A DNA stretch of 23,648 bases, from positions 1 through 23,648 of the IMG/VR virus record IMGVR_UViG_3300014911_000468. One strand, 5' to 3'. The notes beneath the pieces were generated by a model, which saw only the letters and a list, made by a program, of their open reading frames with translations, searched no databases and was not told the DNA's origin. Below are positions 1 through 23,425 of this stretch, piece after piece. Each line of letters opens with the position of its first letter. Position 1 is the stretch's first letter. Source of the DNA: a virus. The position numbers and the translations under genes are program-made.

Positions 1-432
1 GATAGTCTCTCCCACAGCGTCAGCCGCCCTGAGAAAGCTGACAGCTCCTGAAGATGTCTCCCCATAGCCAGATATTGGAGAGCCTTTCGGCCTCAAAGTG
101 CTGAAATTACATCCTACACCTCCGCCATCACTCCATAATATCAAAGCGTTCTTGAGAAAATCACCTATCTCGGATATACTGTCCCCAATAGGCAAATGGT
201 AACAATTGAAAATACTCCCTCTCTGCCTTAAAGCATTCCTAAGTATGCGTCCTGCCGGTAAAAAGTGCATAGGGTAAATAATATTGAAGAACTTATCCTG
301 AAAAGTCTGCGGGTCTTTCTCAGGAATACTGCCCGCTTTCGCTACTCTGAGAGCACACTGTTCCCAGGATTCCTCTTCAGGTAAAAAATATCTGTCTTTC
401 AACAACTGCAACACTCGATCAGAAACTTTCAT
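1..432 (-). CDS. nrdJ: Class II (cobalamin-dependent) ribonucleotide reductase, N-terminal part, runs off the window
   Basis: Only the first 144 codons are present; the frame is open to base 1. I translated it directly: it starts MKVSDRVLQLLKDRYFL and ends at GETI. The motifs FLPAGRILRNA, NCYHLP, GGGVGCNFSTLRPKG and GETSSGAVSFL are the hallmark N-terminal blocks of vitamin-B12-dependent ribonucleotide reductases, which reduce ribonucleotides to deoxyribonucleotides using adenosylcobalamin. The Cys in NCYHL matches the conserved active-site disulfide cysteine. The start ATG is preceded by a near-perfect ribosome site, AAGGAGGTGCTT, at 433-444. It is the last gene seen in the left module, 20 bases after the HAD nucleotidase, so the two probably share a transcript and a role in dNTP supply. 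Class II rather than class I or III is inferred from the motifs; the rest of the protein is outside the window. Confidence 0.88.
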   Translation of the reverse strand, partial: MKVSDRVLQLLKDRYFLPEEESWEQCALRVAKAGSIPEKDPQTFQDKFFNIIYPMHFLPAGRILRNALRQRGSIFNCYHLPIGDSISEIGDFLKNALILWSDGGGVGCNFSTLRPKGSPISGYGETSSGAVSFLRAADAVGETI

Positions 433-452
433 AAGCACCTCCTTATAATTAT

Positions 453-1103
453 TCATTCCCATTCGATTACACTCCAATACTTCCTGATAAACTCCCTACG
501 ATTGAAAAAATAATTATACACCTCATACCAGCCATACATACGCACGATATTACAGACATGACCATCCCCATAATGATAACTTCTATCCTTAAAAGAGAAA
601 ACCTTTAAGTGTCGATTCCAGCTTCTGTCCATCAGAACGACTCGCACATCACCTCTGGCTATCTCCTTTGCATACTTAACCCTGTCCTCTATGTACACTT
701 CTATACCAAGGTCATTAATACAGCTCAACTTATCATTGCCTCTGACATAACATATATCTACCTTGCTGGCTGCTACACCGAACCACACATCAAACCACCT
801 TTTCGTGTAAACAGACGTAGAAGGACTTCTTGAAGTGATGACCACTGCCTTCTCTCCTCGATCCTGGATATAAGAATACAGAAACTCAAGAGCACCTGGA
901 TAAGGCTTGCACTCCGTATATCTGCTAATAGCTACATGCACCAAACTCCTGACTTGGTCTGGACTCAACTGATACTGTTTCTCCAACTCATACCTGACCA
1001 CTACTCCCATATCCAGGCCGTACAGCTCCCTAGCCACTTCCTTTATCACTGACACTAAATCAACCAAACAACCATCTAGGTCGAACCCTATTTTAGGTAA
1101 CAT
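453..1103 (-). CDS. HAD-superfamily 5'(3')-deoxyribonucleotidase-like phosphatase
   Basis: A 216-residue protein. HAD motif I is FDLDGCLVD at residues 7-15 (nucleophile D8, acid/base D10). Motif II is VVITSRS near residue 90, and motif IV is the acidic YIEDR near residue 138. The single-domain size and DLDG..VD motif fit the NT5C/phage deoxynucleotidase group, which dephosphorylates dNMPs; the substrate is inferred. The start is chosen at the ATG at 1103 because GGAGG lies at 1113-1109 with 5-nt spacing; a TTG four codons upstream would place that ribosome site inside the gene. It sits between a nucleotidyltransferase-fold gene and ribonucleotide reductase, consistent with nucleotide metabolism. 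Its leader is a 3-way-junction RNA (1129-1224) whose loop CCUCC is complementary to this gene's ribosome site, so translation may be regulated. Confidence 0.82.
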   Translation of the reverse strand: MLPKIGFDLDGCLVDLVSVIKEVARELYGLDMGVVVRYELEKQYQLSPDQVRSLVHVAISRYTECKPYPGALEFLYSYIQDRGEKAVVITSRSPSTSVYTKRWFDVWFGVAASKVDICYVRGNDKLSCINDLGIEVYIEDRVKYAKEIARGDVRVVLMDRSWNRHLKVFSFKDRSYHYGDGHVCNIVRMYGWYEVYNYFFNRREFIRKYWSVIEWE

Positions 1104-1128
1104 CTTAGCCTCCAAAAATTCTTTGAAG

Positions 1129-1224
1129 CCCCGGTTTGCTCAAACTCTCGGTAGAAAGGAGGAAAGACCCGAAAGCCTGGAGTACATTAATTAAAATGTA
1201 AATCTCCAAAGTCGCAAACCAGAG
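1129..1224 (-). promoter_or_regulatory. Candidate cis-regulatory three-way-junction RNA in the leader of the HAD nucleotidase
   Basis: On the minus strand the 96 nt fold by hand into a three-way junction. P1 pairs CUCUGGUUUGC (1224-1214) with GCAAACCGGGG (1139-1129), 11 bp. P2 pairs UUUGGAG (1210-1204) with CUCCAGG (1182-1176), then after a 3-nt bulge UACAUU (1200-1195) with AAUGUA (1188-1183) around UUAAUU. P3 pairs CUUUCGG (1175-1169) with CCGAGAG (1151-1145). The wobble pairs in all three stems are G-U on this strand and would be A-C mismatches on the other, which supports a minus-strand RNA. The 17-nt P3 loop contains CCUCC (1162-1158), complementary to the GGAGG ribosome site at 1113-1109. 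I do not recognise a known riboswitch class; junction strands are GA, none and UUUGA. Confidence 0.6.
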
Positions 1225-1237
1225 CCTCTTTTTCCGA

Positions 1238-2008
1238 TTAGTATTCGCCTGATAGAAATTTCCAACAACGACAATTTTGAGCCGACTCCAGCTCCTCTAT
1301 ACACTTCAACCTCTCACCCGCAGAATAAGTATCCAGCACTCTGAGTATCTTACCAAACTCCCTAGAACTTATACTATATCCCTTTTTGACATACTTATAC
1401 ACCCTGAATAGTATTTGAGGGACGTCGTATATATTCATAATAGTTATTCGTTTTGAAAATTCATCCTCGTTAAATTGCCTAGTGGCTAGCCCTGTAAAAG
1501 AAGGGAGTCCCGACTCTCCTTCAGCTATAAAAACTTGACAAACTGAAATATCGAACTGGGATATTACTCTAAGAGGAGCCCCCCACAATTTCCGACCCTT
1601 CCATTCCGTTGGCTTTATCAATTGCAAAACACATTCCCTATAACCTTCACAGACTGAAGGTATAGATAAATGCATCAAATAAGTTACCGAAAACTCAGAT
1701 TCAAACCGAAAAGACGCTTCCTCTTGCAGAAAATCATTAAGTTTTGTATAAGCTCTCTTATTCCAACTAAAGATGTCTATATCGTTAAAAGGCAACTTCT
1801 TATAAGAATGAGGAGAGACAAGAAAGCGTGCAAAACCACCAGCTATATAACCTCTCAAGTCGTATATCTTCTTTATAAAACTTCTAGTTTCCTCCACCAA
1901 GACCTTGTTTATATGGAGAGTTATAAGGTCATAGTCTGGGGTGGATCTCCAGATAGGAAACTCTTCAGATTTCTCTACTTTGCTATCTAGCAAAAGTTTT
2001 CTACTCAT
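1238..2008 (-). CDS. Nucleotidyltransferase-fold protein (Pol beta/poly(A) polymerase-head type)
   Basis: A 256-residue protein. The nucleotidyltransferase signature is visible: a GG loop in YIAGGFARFL (G57-G58), then NDIDIF with D76 and D78 as the metal-binding aspartates, and a third candidate aspartate at D153 in QFDISVCQ. This order is that of nucleotidyltransferases such as tRNA nucleotidyltransferase heads, which transfer NMP groups; the acceptor here is unknown. The C-terminal 80 residues are helical and basic with no motif I recognise. The start is the ATG at 2008, preceded by AGAGGA; it overlaps the stop of the zinc ribbon gene (ATGAGTAG), implying translational coupling. A longer form beginning upstream in the frame is unlikely because it lacks a ribosome site. 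It could be a toxin-like nucleotidyltransferase or an RNA-modifying enzyme. Confidence 0.65.
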   Translation of the reverse strand: MSRKLLLDSKVEKSEEFPIWRSTPDYDLITLHINKVLVEETRSFIKKIYDLRGYIAGGFARFLVSPHSYKKLPFNDIDIFSWNKRAYTKLNDFLQEEASFRFESEFSVTYLMHLSIPSVCEGYRECVLQLIKPTEWKGRKLWGAPLRVISQFDISVCQVFIAEGESGLPSFTGLATRQFNEDEFSKRITIMNIYDVPQILFRVYKYVKKGYSISSREFGKILRVLDTYSAGERLKCIEELESAQNCRCWKFLSGEY

Positions 2009-2282
2009 CTTTTTCCTCTCTACTAAATGGCTCCCAAAATACCTGCCTGTCATAATTCATATACTTTAGATGATGTTCGCCTTCCTTGATATACATAGCC
2101 CCGCAAGTCGCACACTTGTATCCAGAAATGCGGGCTATCGCAGAGCCTTCCACCAGACTACCATATACCTGATTCTCGGAAACTTTTTGAGTAAAAATCC
2201 TGCTAAAGACTACAAAGAACTCTCCTCCGCAGACTCTACACGTTCTAATATTGTGAGTATGTTTAGTTATTTGTTTTAACAT
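2001..2282 (-). CDS. Small zinc ribbon protein, unknown function
   Basis: A 93-residue protein with two CxxC knuckles, TCRVCGG (C15, C18) and KCATCGA (C57, C60), typical of a zinc ribbon. The C-terminus is charged (SREEKDE). It begins five bases after the stop of the head-morphogenesis gene with TAAGGAAATG, so the ribosome site touches the preceding stop. Its stop overlaps the start of the nucleotidyltransferase gene. The arrangement suggests one polycistronic message from the promoter at 4.8 kb. Zinc ribbons of this kind in phages are often transcription- or nucleic-acid-binding proteins, but nothing here points to a specific partner. Confidence 0.72.
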   Translation of the reverse strand: MLKQITKHTHNIRTCRVCGGEFFVVFSRIFTQKVSENQVYGSLVEGSAIARISGYKCATCGAMYIKEGEHHLKYMNYDRQVFWEPFSREEKDE

Positions 2283-2286
2283 TTCC

Positions 2287-3930
2287 TTACTCTCTTTTCA
2301 ACGACGACATAGGTTTGCCTATCTTCAAAGGCTTATTCAGAGCTAACTTCCTCAAAGGTCTGACATCGTAAAAATCCGTTATCTTCAGCTCTCCAGCCTT
2401 AAAAGCCTCATACCTTTTAGGACCCAGCCACTTCTTCTGCCAAGAAGCAGGCTGCTTCTTGAACCATTCCGCATAGGTCAAGGTCTCAGGAACTTCACCA
2501 TCCAAACTAGACCGAGTTCCAGGAGGCAACTCCCTGCCTTCGAGTCCTAACTCTTTCCAGGACTTGGTAAGTGGAACTACCAGACAACGGCAGTTGTGCG
2601 TTACAAACCCCTTAGCAACATAGGATTCATCCTCTTCAACTGAGAAATTATACAACCTGACCATTCCTCTCTTCACAGTATAGATAACATCCGCCACTTC
2701 CAATTCCATAAACCCGAATCCCGGATCTCTATACATCTCCTCCCTCGTAGCCCTACTCCTACAAACTACCGAGCAATACGTCCTATCATGCGGGATAACC
2801 TTACCACACTTGCGGCAAAAAGTAGATAGATAAGTAACCTTGTCCCCTATCCTGACTCTATTCGCTGGTATCCACTCGCCCTCTATCCACAAGGGGTGAT
2901 CTCCAGTCACTGTCAACTTAACGGTCTTCTTAATATTCCGACCCTCAAACTGAGGATAAACAACCTTGATAGTCACCAAGTCCACATCCTGCTCCTCATA
3001 CCTAATAAGACGAGTAACTCGCTTAATGTTTCCTGTATGAGTAAGCACTTTATCTCCTACCTGGATAGAACTCACTGGCTTCCAACCTTTTGTGGTAAGT
3101 ATAGGGACTAGTGAATCAGCAAAACAGCGAGGGTGGATCGGAACGTAGAGATTAAACTCACTCAATTTCCACACCCTGCCATCCAGGGAGGCACACTGGA
3201 CGCACGTCCTACGATCAATAGTAGCCACATACTGCACTCCCTTAATAATATCTGCATTATGTCGATAGCTTCTCAAAGCCACCGCATTGCTAACCCGTAT
3301 GGTCTCCGTCCTGACTATTCTATCTAAGTACATAGCCAGTGTCTTTCTGCTGATGTCCCTACCATACTTTTTCATCAACTTCTCGCTAACAGTTACCCCG
3401 ATAGCATTCCTCATCATCCTGCTGATCTCATCCACCCCAAGTCCCTGGGCTATGCCACGAGCAAGTATCCTATCCATAATCACTACAGTCTCCTCATAGG
3501 CAGTCTCCATAGCATCCCCATAGAACATGCTACCAATTGGATTATTCACTATCTCAATTACATGCTCCATAGGCAACCTGTCAAAAGTGACTCCTACCCC
3601 AGAAGGTAAAGCCCTGTCAAAGAAGTCCTTAGTAGTATCAGCCGTAAGCACTCCTATATCAGTTAAGTATCTCTCCACATCATCTTGCACAGCAGCTTGA
3701 GATAAGCTCATAACATCTCTAACATCCTTTCTTATCTGGACTACCCGCTCACGCTCCCATCTGCTGGCTTTCGTTCTACCGAGTCCCATCCTCTCCAGCC
3801 TGTCGTTCAAATCTCTCTCTGTATCCCTCAATATAGACCTGATCTCTCGAAGCTCCTTATCACCAAGGACTTCCAGCTGGTGGTAGAACCTGAGATAAGA
3901 ATTTTTTATACGTTCATTTGCTGATGTCAT
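2287..3930 (-). CDS. Mu gpF/SPP1 gp7-like minor head morphogenesis protein interrupted by an intein
   Basis: The 547-residue precursor would splice to 369 residues. Residues 1-230 are helical. Residues 230-268 plus 447-455 form the Mu-F-like head-morphogenesis core: ATIDRRTCVQCASLDG (C243, C246) followed by HPR at 266-268 and, after the intein, CRCLVVPL, which together restore the family's HPxCRC motif. The family contributes a minor head component associated with portal/procapsid assembly. The intein occupies residues 269-446 (see separate entry). The start ATG at 3930 overlaps the terminase stop by one base (TAATG) with GGGGAG upstream, so the two genes are coupled. No portal gene is visible between terminase and this gene, which is unusual for tailed-phage order; it may lie elsewhere. 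The C-terminal 90 residues contain a WFKKQPASWQKKWLGPKR segment also typical of these head proteins. Confidence 0.88.
   Translation of the reverse strand: MTSANERIKNSYLRFYHQLEVLGDKELREIRSILRDTERDLNDRLERMGLGRTKASRWERERVVQIRKDVRDVMSLSQAAVQDDVERYLTDIGVLTADTTKDFFDRALPSGVGVTFDRLPMEHVIEIVNNPIGSMFYGDAMETAYEETVVIMDRILARGIAQGLGVDEISRMMRNAIGVTVSEKLMKKYGRDISRKTLAMYLDRIVRTETIRVSNAVALRSYRHNADIIKGVQYVATIDRRTCVQCASLDGRVWKLSEFNLYVPIHPRCFADSLVPILTTKGWKPVSSIQVGDKVLTHTGNIKRVTRLIRYEEQDVDLVTIKVVYPQFEGRNIKKTVKLTVTGDHPLWIEGEWIPANRVRIGDKVTYLSTFCRKCGKVIPHDRTYCSVVCRSRATREEMYRDPGFGFMELEVADVIYTVKRGMVRLYNFSVEEDESYVAKGFVTHNCRCLVVPLTKSWKELGLEGRELPPGTRSSLDGEVPETLTYAEWFKKQPASWQKKWLGPKRYEAFKAGELKITDFYDVRPLRKLALNKPLKIGKPMSSLKRE
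2593..3126 (-). other. Mini-intein (178 aa) with a zinc finger in place of an endonuclease, inside the head gene
   Basis: The intein runs from C269 (block A: CFADSLVPILTTKGWKPV then QVGDKV) through block B VTGDHPLWI (T342..H345) to block F RLYNFSVEEDESYVAKGFV and block G THN, followed by +1 Cys of the C-extein. All residues needed for class 1 protein splicing are present: first Cys, block B T-x-x-H, penultimate H445, last N446 and +1 C447. Between the Hint halves, residues 372-390 form CRKCG...YCSVVC, a C4 zinc finger like those beside HNH nucleases, followed by only about 18 residues before the C-terminal splicing block. No LAGLIDADG or HNH motif is visible. It is inferred to be a degenerate, no longer mobile intein that still splices. 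Confidence 0.92.
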
Positions 3931-4775
3931 TATATTATCTCCCCAAATTCATCCACTTCTAAACCTACCATATCAAACACATCGCTAAGTTCGTCTATCT
4001 CTGAAGGGACTCTAATAGTCTCCTCCACTGGTTCTGTTCCTCCATAAAGACGGACGGCTTCCCTAGCAAACCAGCAGGCCATAACCGTATCACCTACTCC
4101 ATATAACTTAGTATAAGTACGCATCTCATTCACCCACGCACACCAAGCACAATCACAATCAGGAATGTGTCGCTCAGGAAAGGGTATCACCCAACCCCCC
4201 ACGCTGAACTCAGACTCCAGTGAAGGCAACCCAGACTCGTCCGCCCACTTCTGCTTGCCTGTAGTAAAGGAAACCACCTTGACCCAAAAGTCATATTGTT
4301 CAGGCAAAGCCTGTATCCACTGTATAATAGATTCCTGATAAGCGTTGTTCTCTACTACTATCACATGAGGCTTGTAATGAGCGTCCACCTCCGCCAGTTG
4401 CTGGGCTACCTGGGGAGAAGTCCAATTACCCTTTCTGATATCCAGTGGGACACGCCTGCTATTAGCTCCAACACCAAGTGTAAAAATCACATTCCCAGGT
4501 CTCTTTGGGGTAGAGAGATCCACTCCTACCGCTATAAACACTCGCTCCTTCTCTGGTAAAGCCTGCTCAATAGTTATCCCGTATCTCACACAATCCATAA
4601 ATGAAGGAAACATCCTTTCGGTATCGGATATAGGCTTCTGCCTGAAACCCTTATCGAAATGCCTCAAAGTAAGTGTATCCGCCTTTTTCCTGAGTGCCTG
4701 CTCATCAAACTTTGCCTCCCAAAGAGGCAACTTTCTTATAGTCAATCCCTTCTTCTTAGCCAAATCTTTTATCAT
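3930..4775 (-). CDS. Terminase large subunit, nuclease domain only (no ATPase half)
   Basis: A 281-residue protein matching the C-terminal half of phage large terminases. FRQKPISDTERMFPSF (44-59) is the linker sequence found after the ATPase domain. The RNase H-like nuclease follows, with acidic residues D86 (AVGVDLSTP), E142 (VIVVENNAY) and D229 (GVGDTVMACWF). In a normal TerL of roughly 450-600 residues these are preceded by a Walker A/B packaging ATPase, which is absent here. The frame is closed by a TGA directly before the ATG, and the next gene upstream is SbcC-like with a promoter between. The ATPase is presumably encoded elsewhere as a separate gene. The ribosome site is weak (AAAAAGGG about 12 nt upstream). 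The gene cuts the concatemer during DNA packaging, by family analogy. Confidence 0.85.
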   Translation of the reverse strand: MIKDLAKKKGLTIRKLPLWEAKFDEQALRKKADTLTLRHFDKGFRQKPISDTERMFPSFMDCVRYGITIEQALPEKERVFIAVGVDLSTPKRPGNVIFTLGVGANSRRVPLDIRKGNWTSPQVAQQLAEVDAHYKPHVIVVENNAYQESIIQWIQALPEQYDFWVKVVSFTTGKQKWADESGLPSLESEFSVGGWVIPFPERHIPDCDCAWCAWVNEMRTYTKLYGVGDTVMACWFAREAVRLYGGTEPVEETIRVPSEIDELSDVFDMVGLEVDEFGEII

Positions 4776-4801
4776 CTGTCAACACTACCCTTTTTGTATA
4801 T

Positions 4802-4827
4802 ATTATAACATAGATTTTCTTAATCAA
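4802..4827 (-). promoter_or_regulatory. Extended -10 phage promoter, TTGATTAAG-N8-TGTTATAAT
   Basis: On the minus strand TTGATTAAG (4827-4819), eight bases, then TGTTATAAT (4810-4802). The -10 is a perfect TATAAT with the extended TG motif. The same two elements with exactly the same 8-base gap occur at 14446-14471, which makes chance unlikely. It stands in the 72-base gap between the SbcC-like gene and the terminase nuclease gene and so should start the left module; a start point near 4795 is expected. The TTGATT to TATAAT spacing is 14 bases, too short for an ordinary sigma-70 -35 box, so the upstream element may be read differently. Confidence 0.7.
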
Positions 4828-4847
4828 AAGTTTTTTATTAGATAAAC

Positions 4848-6692
4848 TTACAATAAAAACGATTCACCATCTTCTTTAACCACCTTGATAGACTCGCTAA
4901 ACATAGATTTAAAATCGGACTGAGGAGAGGCAACTATAATCAATGGCTTGTAGCTAAGCATATTTAAGAATATCTCAAACAGTTTCTGCTGTCCAGCTCT
5001 GTCCAGTCCTCTATGAGGCTCATCTAACAGCATAAAACCCAATTCCTTACCACTTCTATTCTTACTCATCTCCGCAAGAGCCAATGAAGAGGCTATCCGA
5101 ACCTTCTGCCTCTGACCACCAGACAACCCTAGACACAACTCCCCGTTCTCATAGACATTAATCTCAAGACTCTCCAACACTGTCCCCTTCTTAGTCTCCT
5201 TCTGGGTAGTGTATTCCACTGACAGATCACTCCCTATGGTCTCCAGAACACTATTAGTCATAGACTGCAACTCAGAAACAAACTGATCAAACAAAGCCGC
5301 CTGAATCCCCGTAGAACCACACATATCTCTGATAATTTCCAGCACCTTCCTATCCTCTTCTATAGCTTCTAACTCCTCAGTCAATTTCTCCACTTCTGCC
5401 TCCAAAGCTACAACCTTCTTAACAGCTAGCCTTCTTTCCCGCTCCCATACATTATCGCTATTCTTTTTCTCTAAAATACGCTTGTCATACTCAATCTCAA
5501 CTCGCTCCAGCTCCTTCTTCAGCAACTCTTTCCTCTCCGTCAGCCTTTTTAAACTGCTATCCTTCCGTTCCAATTCAAGTTCCTTACTTCTCACATCTCT
5601 ATCAAGATCATTAACATCAGGCTCTATTTCAGCTATCTGTTTCCTCACTTTCTCAAGTTCCTTACTAATGCCCTCATATTCCTTCCTTTTAACACTTATT
5701 TTAGAATCCACTTCCTTAATACATTTCTTCTTATGCTCTTCAGTGACATCCGACTTGCAAACAGGACACTTACCCACCTTTAAATCCAATAACTTCTTCT
5801 TCTCTTTTTCCAGGATAGAAAGAACCGTCCTTACAGAAGTAAACTTCTGAAATAGCCCCAGCTCCTTACCCTTAATACAGGAAAAATCCTTCTGGAGTTG
5901 TATATAATGTTTATTCAGCTTGGTTAAAGTAGTTTTTAGTTTCTTTATCTCCGAACCAACCTCTAATAATTTCTTTTCAACTTTTTCAAGCTCAGCCCTT
6001 TTTTCCTCTTTCACTTTTTCCTTTTCTTTTTCCAGTCCTTTGATAAATTCCTCTTTTGACTTTTCAAAATTAAGGGATTTGTTTTTGAGATCGTCCACTC
6101 TTACCTTCAGCTCTTCCAATTGTCTCTTAGTCGTCTGCAACTTAGTCTCTATTCTTATCTTATCCTCAGCATCATCTTTCAACCACTTTTTAGCTCTATC
6201 ATACAGCAAGTTACACTCAGATATTATATCTCCCGGTAAGAAGTCCATCAGAAGCTCTTTGCGAGCAGCTGGCTTCATATCAAAGAAACTGATGAAATCC
6301 TGTCCTAAAAACGTTGAGCTGTAAAACAAATCGGGATCGATTCCAAACAGCTCATTCACTTCATCCTGAGTAGTCTTTCTACCATTAATGTAAATGCCTG
6401 CCTTAGAGCCTCGCCGACGCTCTAAAGAACATATATTAAAATCCAGCTTAACGGAAACTGACTTCTCTCCAGAAAAAATCACCTCATCATACCGCCTACC
6501 ATCTGGAGTCCTACCTGTTAGACACCACCCGATAGAGGACAGCAGATTGGACTTGCCACTGGCATTACTCTCAGCCGAGTCATCGTCCCTGTTCTCGCCT
6601 TCCACGAATAACAGACCTTTGTTATCTAAAATTAAATCAGCTTTCCTAAAAGAGGCAAAATTCTTTATATGTAGTTCTTTCAATTCAATCAT
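4848..6692 (-). CDS. SbcC/Rad50-like recombination ATPase subunit (T4 gp46-like)
   Basis: A 614-residue SMC-family ATPase. The Walker A region is split: GEN at 32-34 then NASGKSNLL (GKS at 46-48), with an acidic insert between. A long coiled coil (about 165-450) carries a zinc-hook CPVC at 309-312, which dimerises such proteins. The signature LSGGQRQKVRIA starts at 523, and Walker B is MLLDEPHRGLD (D557, E558). With the gp47-like nuclease directly upstream, whose stop overlaps this start by eight bases, it forms a Mre11/Rad50-type complex that processes double-strand ends for recombination and recombination-dependent replication. The phage-type length is shorter than bacterial SbcC (about 1,000 residues). 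The ATG at 6692 has GGAGG 13 nt upstream, so coupling to the preceding gene is likely important. Confidence 0.9.
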   Translation of the reverse strand: MIELKELHIKNFASFRKADLILDNKGLLFVEGENRDDDSAESNASGKSNLLSSIGWCLTGRTPDGRRYDEVIFSGEKSVSVKLDFNICSLERRRGSKAGIYINGRKTTQDEVNELFGIDPDLFYSSTFLGQDFISFFDMKPAARKELLMDFLPGDIISECNLLYDRAKKWLKDDAEDKIRIETKLQTTKRQLEELKVRVDDLKNKSLNFEKSKEEFIKGLEKEKEKVKEEKRAELEKVEKKLLEVGSEIKKLKTTLTKLNKHYIQLQKDFSCIKGKELGLFQKFTSVRTVLSILEKEKKKLLDLKVGKCPVCKSDVTEEHKKKCIKEVDSKISVKRKEYEGISKELEKVRKQIAEIEPDVNDLDRDVRSKELELERKDSSLKRLTERKELLKKELERVEIEYDKRILEKKNSDNVWERERRLAVKKVVALEAEVEKLTEELEAIEEDRKVLEIIRDMCGSTGIQAALFDQFVSELQSMTNSVLETIGSDLSVEYTTQKETKKGTVLESLEINVYENGELCLGLSGGQRQKVRIASSLALAEMSKNRSGKELGFMLLDEPHRGLDRAGQQKLFEIFLNMLSYKPLIIVASPQSDFKSMFSESIKVVKEDGESFLL

Positions 6693-12259: not shown

Positions 12260-13315
12260 CTACCTCCTCTTCTGTTTTCTCGCTACTTTGGTTCTAAATT
12301 TGTCCTCAATCTCCAGCCAGAGATCGATGGTTTTTTCCCTGAGCTCTTTCTCTAAATCGTTTTCCTCTATATAAGCAATAGCCTTGTCTATAAAACCTAT
12401 TTCCTTATTCACACAATCATACTTTGTATTGCCTGTAACCTCTTTGATAAACATCAAGTTGCCTCGAATATCATCAATCCCATACCCGAATATAATGTAT
12501 ATATTAGCCTCCCGATAGGGGTCATCAACTGTATTCTTCTTCACTATGCAAGTGGACTTGATTCCAATGATCTTCTCCAGCGACTTCCTGCTCCCTTCCA
12601 GAGTTATGTTAGATTTTATCTTGCTCCCAGACGCCGGCTTCCCTACCCGTATCCTGACAGAAGAGTAGAAAGGGATACCGTGACCTCCAGGGACAAACTC
12701 ACCACCAGCACCTCCCCGTATCTGATTACTGCACAAGATAATCCAGTTGTTATTCCTAATCATCCGACAGGTCTTTCTCAGCTCCTGTGAGAACTCCTTA
12801 GCTCGCCTCATCCCATACTCGTCCTTGTCCTCCAGCTCCATCTTAGTACTAAGGGCAGTAAGAGAATCGCCCGCTACCACATTAATGGCTTCTGGATTGG
12901 AAGGTTTCCAAGAACGTATATTATCGAAGAATTCCATAACCGTATCCGGTCTCCCATACTTCCCCTTCTCTTTCAAGTCCATCCCATATATTCGACTATA
13001 TTCCATATCGAGACGAGCTTCCGGATCCTGGAAATAAGCCTCTCCACCTTTCGCTTGAGCCGAGGCGCAAGCTTCAGCCAGCAGAGCCGTCTTCCCGACA
13101 CCACTGGGACCGAAGAACTCCACTATGATCCCTGCTGGTATCCCTCCTCCTCTGATTCTCTTGCCCGATATGGCTAAATCCAACAAGGTAGAGCCGGTAG
13201 AAATAACTTTATCAAAAGATACATCATTACTACCAGTATCCACAACTGGCTCGCCTTCAATAGCTTCTTTCACTTCTCCAGCAATATCTTCAGATTTCTT
13301 AATCTTTTTCCTCAA
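12260..13315 (-). CDS. RecA/UvsX-like recombinase
   Basis: A 351-residue strand-exchange ATPase. Walker A is GPSGVGKT (69-76), the catalytic Glu lies in FQDPEAR (E99), Walker B is NVVAGDSL (D150), and the DNA-binding loop region follows CSNQIRGGAGGEFVPGGHG (195-213). It forms filaments on ssDNA and drives homologous recombination and recombination-primed replication. No ATG exists near the N-terminus; the TTG at 13315 is chosen because GGAGG lies seven bases upstream, in the last codons of the SSB gene, whose stop is one base away. It is co-transcribed with the SSB from the promoter at 14446-14471, matching the known functional partnership. The C-terminal tail is basic rather than acidic as in bacterial RecA. 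Confidence 0.92.
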   Translation of the reverse strand: MRKKIKKSEDIAGEVKEAIEGEPVVDTGSNDVSFDKVISTGSTLLDLAISGKRIRGGGIPAGIIVEFFGPSGVGKTALLAEACASAQAKGGEAYFQDPEARLDMEYSRIYGMDLKEKGKYGRPDTVMEFFDNIRSWKPSNPEAINVVAGDSLTALSTKMELEDKDEYGMRRAKEFSQELRKTCRMIRNNNWIILCSNQIRGGAGGEFVPGGHGIPFYSSVRIRVGKPASGSKIKSNITLEGSRKSLEKIIGIKSTCIVKKNTVDDPYREANIYIIFGYGIDDIRGNLMFIKEVTGNTKYDCVNKEIGFIDKAIAYIEENDLEKELREKTIDLWLEIEDKFRTKVARKQKRR

Positions 13316-14399: not shown

Positions 14400-14445
14400 A
14401 ATTACCTCCTAACTTCTATTAGTTAACCATTTTGCTCTTACTTAT

Positions 14446-14471
14446 ATTATAACACAACTTTCCTTAATCAA
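14446..14471 (-). promoter_or_regulatory. Extended -10 phage promoter for SSB-recombinase operon
   Basis: On the minus strand TTGATTAAG (14471-14463), eight bases, TGTTATAAT (14454-14446), the same composite motif and gap as at 4802-4827. It lies in the 167-base gap between the coiled-coil gene and the SSB gene, about 50 bases before the SSB start. The rest of this gap (14472-14566) shows a short weak inverted repeat, TCCTTATATAGGA, but no convincing terminator. Confidence 0.72.
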
Positions 14472-14566
14472 GATTTTCACTGCAACTTTTATTTACTCTC
14501 TTCTGGAGAAAACCGCTAATGAAACAAGTCAAAACTGGCTTAATCCTATATAAGGAACGTTAATCA

Positions 14567-15152: not shown

Positions 15153-16088
15153 TTAGATTAAGCATGCTGTATATAATTGGTAAACCAGCCCGGCTTTTCC
15201 TGAATCATAAGTAGAATCAAGAAAGCAACCCAATAACCCATATACACGAGAATCACCATTGACTCTATTAAGCAGAACCTTTGCAAAGTACCCACAAAGC
15301 CCTCGCCTGATCTCCTCAGCATCCACGTCCATAGCTGACAAGACTTTAACCACCTCCCCCCACTTATAACTGCTTGAATTCTTAGACATGAGTATTCGAG
15401 CTAACTCAGATATAGATCCAGACTCTACCGATGTATGTCTTATTATATCGAGAGCTTCTTCCTCAGTATCAGCTCCTATTATCATATCCAAAGTAACCAG
15501 TATCTGACGGGGACAACCTTCAGCCACCGTATATATTTCACGCTTAACCCTAGTGGACAACTCCCAACCTTCTTGCTCACACACCCAGTCAATCAACTTG
15601 AATGACTCTAACCTGTTAAGCCTTTTGACTTCAAACGAGTGGCATCGATTTCTAATTGTAGGAATTAGTTTCCCAGGATCAGTGGTACAGAGTATAAAAT
15701 ACACGTGATCAGGAGTATCCTCCAGTATCTTCAGCAAAGCGTTCTGAGCATCACTCGTAAGTCGGTGAGACTCGTCTAACAAGAAAATCCTCACTTTACC
15801 AGACAAGGGAGCGTAATTACAAATATTTATAATCTCCCTTATAGTATCAATCCCTCTTGTATTAGCTACATTGAACTCATGAAAATCCCTATCCCCACAT
15901 CCCAGCTTGTTCTTCAATATACGAGCCAATGTAGTCTTGCCACATCCAGATGGCCCTTTAAATAAGAATGCATGGGGTATGCCTTCTTTCCTCTCCACTA
16001 TCTCAGAAAGAGACTTGACCACTGAACTGTTACCTACGAATTCAGTAAAATCTTTTGGTCGATATTTTAAATGCAAAGGCTGATCCAT
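15153..16088 (-). CDS. AAA+ clamp loader (DnaX/RFC-small/T4 gp44-like)
   Basis: A 311-residue ATPase. The N-terminus LKYRPKDFTEFVGNSSVV is the box found at the start of DnaX/RFC subunits. Walker A is GPSGCGKTT (45-53), Walker B FLLDESHRL, sensor 1 ILCTTDP, and TIRNRCHSF is the SRC-like motif supplying the arginine finger. It opens the sliding clamp and loads it on primed DNA. Only this one loader subunit is seen, so it may work as a homopentamer or with a small subunit elsewhere. The start is the ATG at 16088, sharing one base with the polymerase stop (TGATG), with AAGGAG eight bases upstream. It has no bacterial tau-like extension. Confidence 0.9.
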   Translation of the reverse strand: MDQPLHLKYRPKDFTEFVGNSSVVKSLSEIVERKEGIPHAFLFKGPSGCGKTTLARILKNKLGCGDRDFHEFNVANTRGIDTIREIINICNYAPLSGKVRIFLLDESHRLTSDAQNALLKILEDTPDHVYFILCTTDPGKLIPTIRNRCHSFEVKRLNRLESFKLIDWVCEQEGWELSTRVKREIYTVAEGCPRQILVTLDMIIGADTEEEALDIIRHTSVESGSISELARILMSKNSSSYKWGEVVKVLSAMDVDAEEIRRGLCGYFAKVLLNRVNGDSRVYGLLGCFLDSTYDSGKAGLVYQLYTACLI

Positions 16089-18631
16089 CAATTAATCTCC
16101 TTTTTATAATACCAAGATTGATCCACTCCCGTAAGCTCTATATCTATATCCAGAGGCACTATTATCCAATCAAACTCCTTCCTTATATCCTCACACATTA
16201 CCTTCTTCACAACACCAATTACATGCTCCTCTTCATCAGGACTAAGATCAAACAGAATCTCATCATGTATTTCCCCAAGAATCTTAGTCCTCCAACCCTC
16301 TTCTTTTCTAATTTTATTTATCTTAATATAACTCCATAGCAGACAATGAAAAGCAGTCCCTTGTATAGGAGTATTGATAATGATATTTCTACGCAAATAT
16401 CCACCTCTTCTAAAGCCGAAAGGCATCTCCACATAACCTGTTTTCAGATATTTCTCTACCACCTCCTCTTGCCACTCTCTAAAAACCTTAAATCTTGACC
16501 AGAATCTATTTTCCACTTCCCTAACATGCTCCTCAAAATCCCTGTAAACTTTTATCCCCTTCCTCTCAAGATGATCTCTCACCAAAACCCCACTCTCTGT
16601 TTCCTTTCCCTCTATGCCATTCCATATGTCTTTAGCACAAGACTTCCAATAACTTCCGTAGAACTCCGGAAATACAAACCTATTCTTAGCCAAGTACCTC
16701 AACTCACTAGACACTTCAGACTTTTCCAAAAGAAATATATTGCTTGCCTCATCTTTGTGCATATCAGATTTAGGATCACATATATACCCCACCAGGACTG
16801 GGTCTTTGGTGATACAAGCAGCTATGCAGACCTCTATCCCTTTATAATCACAGCTCATTATTTTATTTCCTCTCGAAGGCACTATGCCTTTACGCACCGA
16901 AGCTTTAGCCAACTCATCCCTGACCGGAATGTTCTGAAAGTTGGGCATAGAGGAACTCGATCTATAAGAACGAGCTATATGGAGATCATAGAAAGGGTGA
17001 ATCTTACCGTTGACGACTTCCCTCTCAAATTGAGCCAAGTAAGTATCCCTAATTTTTGTTAGTTTTCTCTTCAAAAGGAGATTCCTAGCGAACTCAGAAT
17101 CGATCTTCGATAACGTTTCCTCATCAACAGAGGCATTACTAGCTTGGGTAAGTTTAACTGGCTTTAGACCCAAAATATCAAAAAACAAGATTCTCAAATC
17201 TTTGGTGGAACTCGTGTTAATCTCCTTTCCTACCTTCTCAACAAATAATTTAGCTTCCCGACTACTAGCCAGCACTTTGTCCAACCTATCTATACGCTTA
17301 GTCAGACGAATTTTTTCTCTCTCATAATAACCCTCATCCACACATATTCCCTGGTGCTGAGCATCAGCCAGAGCCAATATCCCCTCATGAAACAAAGCAT
17401 AAGCCTCTCTTCTTTTATCACCGAGAGGCAACTCCTTCAATTGTTCTTCTTTCAATTTTCTAGTAAACAAAACGTCAAGTCCATTATACTGGCCTAACTC
17501 ACTCAAAGGGACGCCATCTACAGAATTAATCTTATTATTCACGCTTACTCCTAAAAACTTTTTAACACCTTTATCATACTCATCAACACCCCACCTGACA
17601 TAAGACTGGAACTTCAGCGATGTTATCCCATGCCTGTCATCTATAATATGCTGAGCTATCATAGTGTCCCAGACCCATCCTACAGGCTCGACTCCAAATA
17701 TCTCCATTGACCAACAATGCTCAAACTTAACATTATGAGCGGTCTTCTTTATCTCTGGATCAGTAAGAACCTTTTTCCATAGATCACTTACGCAATTTAT
17801 TTCATCCGAATCCAACTTGCCTTCTTTTCCATTATATTGAAACGGGAAAGAATATACCTCACTCGAATCCTCACAACCTACGCCTATAACCACTACACGA
17901 TGGAACGTCTCATAAGGCTTTAACCCCGTAGTTTCATAATCAAATACTATCGGCTCTTTATTATCAATTATACGTCTAAGTAAACTGCAAATATCTTCAA
18001 ATCCAGTCAATGTATTAACTAAACTACTATAATCGACTCTCTCAGGCAACTTCTTCCCAATACAAGAGACAGCAAACTCAAGATCACGATCAAAGACCAT
18101 CTCCAGATACTTATCATCCCGATTATGTAACAGGGCAGAAGGGTGATACATAGGTATCAAAAAAGCATTACAGTCGTAGTCTGGTATGCAGTGCCGACGC
18201 CACCTTGAAACACTCAAATCAGAGAACCTTCCCATAAAGAACGACTCTATAGCAGCTCCTCCAAAAAGCCATATATACTTAGGCTTCAACTCCTTCATTG
18301 CTTTATCCAACATGGGACGACAACACTTCAGCTCCTTACGAGTCGGCTTGCGATTATTAGGAGGACGGCAATTAACAGCGTTAATCTTCCAACAATCCCT
18401 ATCCAAGCTAATACCATGCCTTCTAAGTTTCTGTCTCAACAACTGACCAGCTTCGCCTACAAGCTGTTCACCTCTCTCGTCTTCCTCAGCTCCAGGAGCT
18501 TCAGCTACTACCAGTATCCCCTTCTTACCTTTACCTGTCACTGGCATACGAGGAGACTTGCAACCCCTATCTAACCCACAACTAGAACAATTAGGCTTAC
18601 TAATATCTTTATTAATCAGCTGATACACCAT
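16088..18631 (-). CDS. Family A DNA polymerase with N-terminal uracil-DNA glycosylase-like domain
   Basis: An 847-residue fusion. Residues 1-195 are a family 4 UDG-like domain: likely Fe-S cysteines C15, C18, C88 and C103/104, motif VVAEAPGAEEDERGEQLVGEAG (42-62), and HPSALL (H163). Residues 215-400 are the proofreading exonuclease: Exo I FDYETTG (D231, E233), Exo II HNVKFEH (N300, E304 where Asp is usual), Exo III YNGLD (Y382, D386). Residues 410-847 are the polymerase: motif A SCDYKGIEV (D595, E600), motif B RYLAKNRFVFPEFYG (R645, K649, Y658) and motif C GEIHDEI (H789, D790, E791). It lacks a 5' nuclease, supplied by the exonuclease gene at 7.7-8.6 kb. It is the replicative polymerase, between the clamp and clamp loader. 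GAGG precedes the ATG by eight bases. Confidence 0.93.
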   Translation of the reverse strand: MVYQLINKDISKPNCSSCGLDRGCKSPRMPVTGKGKKGILVVAEAPGAEEDERGEQLVGEAGQLLRQKLRRHGISLDRDCWKINAVNCRPPNNRKPTRKELKCCRPMLDKAMKELKPKYIWLFGGAAIESFFMGRFSDLSVSRWRRHCIPDYDCNAFLIPMYHPSALLHNRDDKYLEMVFDRDLEFAVSCIGKKLPERVDYSSLVNTLTGFEDICSLLRRIIDNKEPIVFDYETTGLKPYETFHRVVVIGVGCEDSSEVYSFPFQYNGKEGKLDSDEINCVSDLWKKVLTDPEIKKTAHNVKFEHCWSMEIFGVEPVGWVWDTMIAQHIIDDRHGITSLKFQSYVRWGVDEYDKGVKKFLGVSVNNKINSVDGVPLSELGQYNGLDVLFTRKLKEEQLKELPLGDKRREAYALFHEGILALADAQHQGICVDEGYYEREKIRLTKRIDRLDKVLASSREAKLFVEKVGKEINTSSTKDLRILFFDILGLKPVKLTQASNASVDEETLSKIDSEFARNLLLKRKLTKIRDTYLAQFEREVVNGKIHPFYDLHIARSYRSSSSMPNFQNIPVRDELAKASVRKGIVPSRGNKIMSCDYKGIEVCIAACITKDPVLVGYICDPKSDMHKDEASNIFLLEKSEVSSELRYLAKNRFVFPEFYGSYWKSCAKDIWNGIEGKETESGVLVRDHLERKGIKVYRDFEEHVREVENRFWSRFKVFREWQEEVVEKYLKTGYVEMPFGFRRGGYLRRNIIINTPIQGTAFHCLLWSYIKINKIRKEEGWRTKILGEIHDEILFDLSPDEEEHVIGVVKKVMCEDIRKEFDWIIVPLDIDIELTGVDQSWYYKKEIN

Positions 18632-20567: not shown

Positions 20568-20591
20568 GTAATTTATCCTCCTTCTTCCTTT

Positions 20592-20617
20592 ATTATAACA
20601 TAACTCTTCTTATTTTT
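20592..20617 (-). promoter_or_regulatory. Extended -10 promoter for the clamp-polymerase operon
   Basis: TGTTATAAT (20600-20592) on the minus strand is identical to the -10 element at 4802-4810 and 14446-14454. At the same 8-base distance upstream is AAAAATAAG, matching five of nine positions of TTGATTAAG, including the TAAG end. It lies in the 56-base gap between helicase and the 129-residue gene, about 25 bases before the start codon. Confidence 0.62.
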
Positions 20618-20623
20618 TATTTT

Positions 20624-22177: not shown

Positions 22178-23425
22178 TCAATTATTAATCAATGCTTGTT
22201 TGTGTAGATAAGCAGGCAGTAACTTATTGAAAGTGTACTCAGAACAGAAACTCCCCACCTCTATACCCCCCTCCCCGTACCTGTCCACTAGGGCTTTGTA
22301 AAGCAATTCAGCCAGCTCACCTACCGATATTCTAGTCACTAACTTATTACACACCTTATCATAAAAAGCTTTCAACTTGACACTAGCTATAATAAATTTC
22401 CTTTGCTGTTCTATGGTGTATTTCTCAGGAGAAATCCCTCCGAGGGATTTCTCATATAAAGATTTGATTTTATTCACTAGGGCCGGGTATTTGTTCTCTG
22501 CAGTAAGAGGTGTGCTTGGATCATTTTCCAAATAGAAGATGAATAAACTTTTGTAACCTTCCCTGAAGTCGCAATAAAGAAAATCTAACAAAGAAGTAGA
22601 TTTTACTCTTTTAACATGGGCTTTAGTAGGCTTATACTCTAGATTAGTAGAAGCTACAAAGTTATCTATAGATTTAAGTATATCTTCCTTCTTAAAAGGT
22701 CTATCTCTATAGAACTCAAATCCTTCTTTGTTATTAAAAAAAGTGCCTTTAATAAGCTTTTTAAGAGCAAGTACTATTTCTTGGTAAATCTTAGTACTAG
22801 GGTCTTTATGCCTACGTAACCCTTTCTTGTTCCAATAAGAAATTATTTCCTTTATTACTTTGGGAATAAAAAAGTTATTAGACGGTGGTTCAAGGGTGAA
22901 GTTTTTTACTTCACCCTTACTATCTTTTAATAATATATCTCTAGATATATTATTAAAAGTAGTACTAGTAATACTAGTATTATTCGGCTTTGACTCGTCG
23001 TCTAAAACTTCTTTATTTTCAATAGGTTCTGCCGTTTTTTGGGTGGGGGGGTATACGCATTTTTGCGTAGGGTATACGCATTTTTGCGTAGGGTATACGC
23101 ATTTTTGCGTAGGGTCTTTAACTTTTCTTAAAAACCTCTCTATAGGGTATATTTTCCTCAAGTGGCCTTGAGTTTTATTAACGTCTATTTCTATGTATTT
23201 CTCTTTTTTAAGTTGTGCAATTATCCGGGTGACTTGAGACTTACTGATTCCAAACAGCTCGGAAAAGTATCCATTCGTAGCCCAGCAGTAACCTTCCTTG
23301 TTACAAAGAGCTATTATTTCAGAATAGATCAATTTAGCTGTAGAAGACAGATTTGGATCATATCTCACGTCTGCCGGCATTACAGAATAGTAATTAGGTT
23401 TACTTTGGATGTATTTTTTAGCCAT
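22178..23425 (-). CDS. Winged-helix replication initiator with an embedded iteron origin
   Basis: A 415-residue protein. Residues 20-95 are a winged helix like those of phage O/RepA-like replisome organisers (LSSTAKLIYSEIIALC then NGYFSELFGISKSQVTRIIAQLKKEKYIEI). Residues 104-130 are three copies of PTQKCVY, the translation of three exact 21-bp DNA repeats. Residues 130-185 are a low-complexity linker, and 190-415 a helical C-terminal region that may contact the helicase. Phage initiators such as lambda O bind iterons placed within their own gene and recruit the helicase; here the helicase is the next gene. The ATG at 23425 has GAGG six bases upstream. The codon content of the linker appears constrained by the DNA repeats rather than by the protein. 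Confidence 0.72.
   Translation of the reverse strand: MAKKYIQSKPNYYSVMPADVRYDPNLSSTAKLIYSEIIALCNKEGYCWATNGYFSELFGISKSQVTRIIAQLKKEKYIEIDVNKTQGHLRKIYPIERFLRKVKDPTQKCVYPTQKCVYPTQKCVYPPTQKTAEPIENKEVLDDESKPNNTSITSTTFNNISRDILLKDSKGEVKNFTLEPPSNNFFIPKVIKEIISYWNKKGLRRHKDPSTKIYQEIVLALKKLIKGTFFNNKEGFEFYRDRPFKKEDILKSIDNFVASTNLEYKPTKAHVKRVKSTSLLDFLYCDFREGYKSLFIFYLENDPSTPLTAENKYPALVNKIKSLYEKSLGGISPEKYTIEQQRKFIIASVKLKAFYDKVCNKLVTRISVGELAELLYKALVDRYGEGGIEVGSFCSEYTFNKLLPAYLHKQALINN
22429..22453. repeat. Perfect inverted repeat, 12-bp arms, in the initiator gene
   Basis: GAGAAATCCCTC (22429-22440) and GAGGGATTTCTC (22442-22453) are perfect complements around one base. A further TTTCTC at 22421-22426 can pair with the left arm, so overlapping hairpins are possible. 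It lies in the part encoding the C-terminal region (KSLGGISPEK). Confidence 0.7.
22892..22918. repeat. Perfect inverted repeat, 11-bp arms, T5 loop
   Basis: AAGGGTGAAGT (22892-22902), TTTTT, ACTTCACCCTT (22908-22918). It lies within the initiator linker coding region, six bases from the next inverted repeat. It is not followed by a T tract on either strand, so it is not a simple terminator. Confidence 0.75.
22924..22959. repeat. Perfect AT-rich inverted repeat, 17-bp arms
   Basis: CTTTTAATAATATATCT (22924-22940), CT, AGATATATTATTAAAAG (22943-22959). The arms are exact complements and almost all A/T, a plausible duplex-unwinding or cruciform element about 90 bp from the iterons. A 12-bp palindrome, AATACTAGTATT, follows at 22970-22981. 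Confidence 0.78.
23049..23114. repeat. Three exact 21-bp palindromic iterons, probable replication origin
   Basis: Units at 23049-23069, 23070-23090 and 23091-23111 are identical, followed by another GGG. Each unit contains the perfect palindrome TACGCATTTTTGCGTA (TACGCA, TTTT, TGCGTA). The 21-bp period equals two helical turns, so bound dimers would line up on one face of the DNA. A G-rich run (TGGGGGGG) adjoins at 23044-23051 and AT-rich inverted repeats lie at 22.92-22.98 kb. Location inside an initiator gene, upstream of a helicase gene, is the lambda-like origin arrangement. Confidence 0.8.

Follow-up and report, generated by a model that had tools for sequence, protein, structure and literature searches.

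Genes around the leader

The window, meaning the whole stretch of DNA that was analyzed, is a 23.6-kb IMG/VR phage fragment in which the minus strand carries nearly all of the genes. At its low-numbered end lies the N-terminal part of a class II-like ribonucleotide reductase gene (1-477, minus strand; Pfam Ribonuc_red_lgN/lgC), which overlaps the end of a 5'(3')-deoxyribonucleotidase-like gene (453-1103, minus strand; Pfam NT5C, 3.2e-08; phrog_420). The nucleotidase open reading frame opens at a TTG at 1115, and the ATG at 1103, preceded by a GGAGG Shine-Dalgarno (SD) sequence at 1113-1109, is the likelier start. Relatives of this protein in viral and genome collections share about 30% identity or less with it. 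A gap of 122 nt separates the nucleotidase frame from the end of the upstream gene (1238-2053, minus strand), the stop codon of which adjoins the leader; this gene matches phrog_4400 (8.8e-08, function unknown) and, from a GG..DIDIF motif, may be read as nucleotidyltransferase-like.

Several other features of the window were recorded. Throughout, the plus strand has a very strong GC skew, between about -0.3 and -0.48, and purines are unusually abundant in the coding strand. A Hint/intein-like domain of ~150 residues, with C..HN/C borders, interrupts a Mu F-like head morphogenesis protein (2287-3930, minus strand). The neighboring terminase large subunit frame (3930-4775, minus strand) aligns to the C-terminal part of its family only (486-628 of 760), and the gene may be split, as the ATPase half was not seen adjoining it. 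A uracil-DNA-glycosylase domain is fused to a family A DNA polymerase (16088-18631, minus strand), a module common to a large IMG/VR lineage, and in IMGVR 3300028840_008186 the polymerase of this module is split over two frames. The sequence TGTTATAAT is repeated in the intergenic gaps at 4776-4847, 14400-14566, and 20568-20623 (minus strand), probably as extended -10 promoters. A match to the mir-1012 model at 22916-22969 is spurious and lies on a tandem repeat coding for PTQKCVYP within a coding region.

Fold of the leader

The intercistronic leader (1116-1237, minus strand) forms a three-way junction with a minimum free energy (MFE) of -45.3 kcal/mol and a z score of -4.67, and none of 200 shuffled sequences was as stable; the plus strand of the same interval reached a z score of merely -1.14. 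No other gap of the window falls below a z score of -2.3, and the model fold survives 70-80 °C. A closing stem, P1 (1125-1228), pairs 1228-1214 with 1139-1125 over 15 bp, of which three are G-U, and P2 (1177-1209) has 6+6 bp, a bulge of 3 nt, and a 6-nt UUAAUU loop; both are taken from the MFE pair list of a single sequence. The third stem, P3 (1141-1179), pairs 1179-1169 with 1151-1141, is 8 bp long within the MFE structure and up to 11 bp when folded alone, and scores 46.1 bits with the R2 model. The preliminary description had thus placed the gap and the junction correctly, with stem lengths slightly different from those found here (15, 6+6, and 8-11 bp). It had also noted that the wobble pairs are G-U only on the transcribed strand, and every stem does contain minus-strand G-U pairs, which in the plus strand would read A-C. 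The leader fold is real. A function of the plus strand was ruled out by the fold z score and the wobble pairs, and a minus-strand terminator by the U run, which begins 6 nt beyond the stem.

Searches for the junction as a whole

Rfam 15, which includes the cobalamin, purine/2'-dG, and THF riboswitches and 6C, gave no match to positions 1050-1300 at E values up to 5, in agreement with the earlier statement that the element resembles none of these riboswitches. A model of the whole junction found no match in 55 loci, 29 viral records, 50 polymerase-relative records, and further fetched pieces, and a pattern of P1 plus junction gave 11 chance-level matches, none of which was scored by the model. 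The polymerase relatives, at up to 56% identity, have replication genes in common with the window and lack the nucleotidase and the leader RNA. The junction was seen in none of 22 folded regions upstream of nucleotidase relatives; one such region (L010) had a moderate z score. In two others of the 22 (L032 and L033, z -5.7 and -4.0), strong, simple terminator-like hairpins lie directly upstream of the phage nucleotidase gene, in both cases just before position 3000.

As no homologue was found in the sequences searched, P1, P2, and the junction remain single-sequence predictions. The conserved aptamer across homologues that would mark a metabolite riboswitch was likewise not found among these sequences for the junction, P1, or P2, and nothing was found in support of the ligand sensing or the link to B12 that had been suggested.

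The P3 loop and ribosome-binding sites

The 17-nt loop of P3, GUCUUUCCUCCUUUCUA (1152-1168, minus strand), carries CCUCC. As first reported, this can pair with the GGAGG at 1113-1109; exactly five Watson-Crick pairs are possible, and there is no 6-mer match. Since CCUCC occurs in 6% of composition-shuffled loops and in 0.5% of random minus-strand 17-mers, the pairing alone is weak evidence. Other ribosome-binding sites (RBSs) of the window were compared with the loop in two counts: in one, 5 of 23 were as strong as the nucleotidase site or stronger, and in the second most paired more strongly than it did. Many of these RBSs pair strongly with the loop, at up to -18 kcal/mol. The complementarity is therefore that of a general anti-SD sequence and not of a gene-specific lock, and the proposal of a loop specific for the nucleotidase ribosome site is not supported, as other sites pair as well or better and the loop precedes different genes elsewhere.

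Copies of the hairpin in other phages

A sensitive DNA comparison placed the loop in about 144 mycobacteriophage records, and the records examined were all Kostyavirus (cluster E). The matches lie mostly in annotated gaps, and the Kostyavirus match is weak on its own, as its best E value was only 0.4. In phage Quink, the loop is identical at 17 of 17 positions and is borne flush by a different stem of 13 bp; within Kostyavirus, stem changes from G-U to A-U and from U-A to U-G preserve the pairs. The Brevundimonas jumbo phage Kikimora carries the loop GUGUUUCCUCCUUUCUA in the gap that leads up to its major capsid gene, on a third stem, of 10 bp. Two further copies were seen in IMG/VR records that had been retrieved for other reasons. 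In 3300010413_000191 (L183, 7403-7435), the loop GUUUUACCUCCUUUCUC closes a stem of 7 bp, a bulge, and ~13 bp (z -5.85) within a 111-nt gap preceding an SbcC-like gene. In 3300028840_002716 (L249, ~13118-13152, minus strand), the loop GUUUCCUCCUUUCUC has an inner stem of ~4 bp within a 14-bp stem, and the hairpin lies before a 303-residue gene, after a TATAAT-like sequence and ahead of a terminator-like hairpin.

Relative to the window, the loops of the Kostyavirus, Kikimora, and two IMG/VR copies have 0-3 changes (none in Kostyavirus, 1-3 in the others) and their stems are completely different. In all copies, CCUCC is on the coding strand upstream of a gene, and in each the following gene has an SD able to pair with the loop. 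The genes themselves differ, encoding a nucleotidase, an SbcC-like protein, a major capsid protein, a putative secreted protein, and an unknown protein, and the hairpin lies ~80 nt from the start codon in Quink and 220-240 nt from it in Kikimora.

The distribution is patchy, with no copy in phiCbK or CcrColossus, which are related to Kikimora; Giles and one Gordonia phage also gave no match, and SPO1L5 gave a match at chance level only. BLAST matches in Enterococcus and Streptomyces phages were dismissed because they lacked the hairpin. Among bacterial genomes, there were no matches in 396 of one phylum and a single antisense-RBS match in 398 of another. Rfam gave no match to the other copies, the mycobacteriophage one included, apart from a microRNA model that scored below threshold at another place in L203.

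Two neighboring or similar structures were also noted. Kostyavirus alone has a second hairpin with CCCUCCUUCCC, 15 bp long and with the C-rich loop GGUUCCCUCCUUCCC, which follows the first and stands just before the gp68 SD (L203, 2542-2586). IMGVR 3300009506_000008 has a terminator-like hairpin of 13 bp followed by TTTTT, with a UCCCUCCUUUCCC-like loop (L253, ~4964-4992), and may put an anti-SD loop to a related use.

Match of the loop core to the 16S rRNA tail

The core of the loop, CCUCCUUUCU (1153-1162, minus strand), is invariant in all copies and is that of the 16S rRNA 3' tail, the anti-SD. The tail has been mapped in many bacteria as GAUCACCUCCUUUCU(A) (PMC6288834), and the invariant phage core UU[U/A]CCUCCUUUCU equals this tail from CCUCC onward. 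The element was for this reason named the 16S-tail-mimic (anti-SD) hairpin, defined as a flush stem of at least 7 bp with the loop UU[U/A]CCUCCUUUCU, on the coding strand and before a gene. Hairpins of this form are present in the window, Kostyavirus, Kikimora, and IMG/VR 3300010413_000191; the IMG/VR 3300028840_002716 copy falls short in its inner stem. The UUUCU part is invariant beyond what the phages' own SDs require, these SDs varying between copies. The loop length and the closing G.A or G-C are nearly fixed, and the bases 5' of CCUCC depart from the GAUCA of 16S rRNA in most copies.

Covariation and controls

Across four independent copies, 8 of 8 stem pairs are changed on both sides, and 96.9% of cells pair, vs 57% in shuffles. 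Sliding the stem partner abolished the signal, and an alignment of seven rows, four of them Kostyavirus variants, left the result unchanged. The compensatory changes called for in the preliminary description were therefore found for P3, in unrelated phages, but not for P1, P2, or the whole junction, for which the searches gave no homologue.

When 17-nt stretches were drawn at random from phage DNA 2 million times, stems flush with them reached at least 7 bp at a rate of 1.4e-3, at least 10 bp at 1e-4, and at least 13 bp at 9e-6. Note that the Kostyavirus and Kikimora copies had been found via the loop, and that the L183 copy was chosen among ~30 loose loop matches because a stem was present. 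Antisense-RBS matches do occur by chance, as the reverse complement of the loop is a good natural SD; L206 and L212 are of this kind and have no hairpin. CCTCCT and other anti-SD words show no general excess in phage hairpin loops, so the hairpin is a specific and sparse motif. Taken together, a recurrent motif, in which a 16S-tail loop is carried on varied stems, is strongly supported. Because the loop precedes unrelated genes in unrelated phages on differing stems, it looks like a recurring phage device acting on translation start.

Interpretation

The functional core would be P3, whose stem is free in sequence and whose loop displays the 16S tail, UUUCCUCCUUUCU, unchanged and unpaired, next to a closing pair that is G.A or G-C. 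Since it copies the ribosome's own anti-SD, the loop can pair with any strong SD. The most likely interpretation of these data, to which we give an even chance, is that the phage-borne hairpin and the 30S tail compete for one SD, that of the next gene on the mRNA that carries the hairpin. Anti-SD pairing is known to block translation in NfeR1/alpha-r14 (PMC10746234), B11 (PMC10470900), and icaR (PMC3868564). Such competition would lower or time translation of the downstream gene; in the window the target would be the nucleotidase, to which the gene overlap may couple the reductase, and P1 and P2 may hold P3 back toward the SD. The stability of the fold on the coding strand only (z -4.67) is in favor of this mechanism. 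Of the translational leader first proposed, the transcribed-strand structure and its anti-SD loop stand, and a role at translation initiation is probable. Action in cis is probable too; that the loop pairs in the cell, that it represses, and that it does so in cis and not in trans are what we infer. Against pairing in cis, the own SD does not stand out among the RBSs of its genome in complementarity to the loop, the loop is constant while the own SDs differ, and ~80 nt (Quink) and 220-240 nt (Kikimora) lie between the hairpin and the start codon. Given the constant loop, the hairpin may instead act in trans or be bound by a protein that recognizes the 16S end.

Candidates for such a protein are platform ribosomal proteins, nucleases of 16S maturation (YbeY, for example), and proteins of the phage itself; the loop would be a decoy of the 16S 3' end for a tail-binding or tail-trimming protein, which would then regulate or cleave the mRNA. 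The invariance of the entire tail, UUUCU included, and the nearly fixed loop length and closing pair fit such a decoy, which we nevertheless think rather unlikely, the bases 5' of CCUCC being unlike GAUCA in most copies. It is less likely again that the hairpin, alone or excised, pairs with the SDs of many host and phage mRNAs in the way of cuckoo/alpha-r14 or 6C: many window RBSs pair strongly with the loop, and the hairpin of IMG/VR 3300028840_002716 does stand between a promoter-like and a terminator-like element, but the window leader has no promoter-like site directly before it and lies inside a same-strand gene series, and all copies found precede a gene.

The 15-bp P1 and 12-bp P2, stacked within an intercistronic gap, might instead form an RNase III-type cut site for mRNA processing or stability, with the loop incidental. 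This appears very improbable, as conservation is in the loop and not in the long helix, and P1 and P2 have no counterpart in other copies. That pyrimidine loops are complementary to SDs by mere coincidence would be consistent with the antisense-RBS matches, the lack of a general CCTCCT excess, and the first BLAST E value; it is scarcely credible, given that the chance matches L206 and L212 have no hairpin while the real copies share exact loop borders and covarying stems. A farther-reaching proposal, which we consider somewhat probable, is an undescribed phage RNA family of stem-loops with an exact copy of the 16S 3' tail, which would control translation start by ribosome mimicry, whether by SD pairing or by capture of a factor that recognizes the 16S end, and would have been picked up by phages that are not related to one another and that infect Actinobacteria, Alphaproteobacteria, and unknown hosts.

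Comparison with known systems

The literature searched, which left out most subscription journals, holds no description of a phage 16S-tail-mimic hairpin. The closest systems are the alpha-r14/cuckoo sRNAs of Alphaproteobacteria, such as NfeR1 (PMC10746234), in which an ultraconserved anti-SD loop is likewise borne on stems of unrelated sequence; the phage hairpins show the same feature, with 8 of 8 pairs changed and the core invariant. However, the alpha-r14/cuckoo loop is CCUCCUCCC, whereas every phage copy has CCUCCUUUCU, and three hairpins make up each free-standing host sRNA, whereas the phage element presents one loop in gaps before genes. The 6C/B11 sRNA of mycobacteria (PMC10470900) also pairs ribosome-binding sites through C-rich loops and represses, but it is a host sRNA with C-run loops on two hairpins, and the phage copies have no Rfam 6C match. 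The phage hairpin would work like the cuckoo/alpha-r14 and 6C RNAs and belongs to neither, as its loop sequence and the Rfam result show.

In the icaR 3'-UTR of Staphylococcus aureus (PMC3868564), an anti-SD motif keeps ribosomes from loading on the mRNA that contains it and creates an RNase III site; there, the motif is UCCCCUG in a 3' UTR, whereas the phage element is a conserved stem-loop in a 5' leader. The purS motif riboswitch candidate (PMC11109978) is similarly a complex leader with a loop that possibly acts as an anti-SD, but it belongs to Corynebacterium and precedes a purine operon, and the phage leader has no Rfam match. Anti-SD loops in bacterial sRNAs were already known; that phages without visible kinship share a conserved mimic of the 16S tail, in gaps preceding genes, suggests a portable way to compete with the mRNA-binding end of the ribosome or to borrow its recognition.
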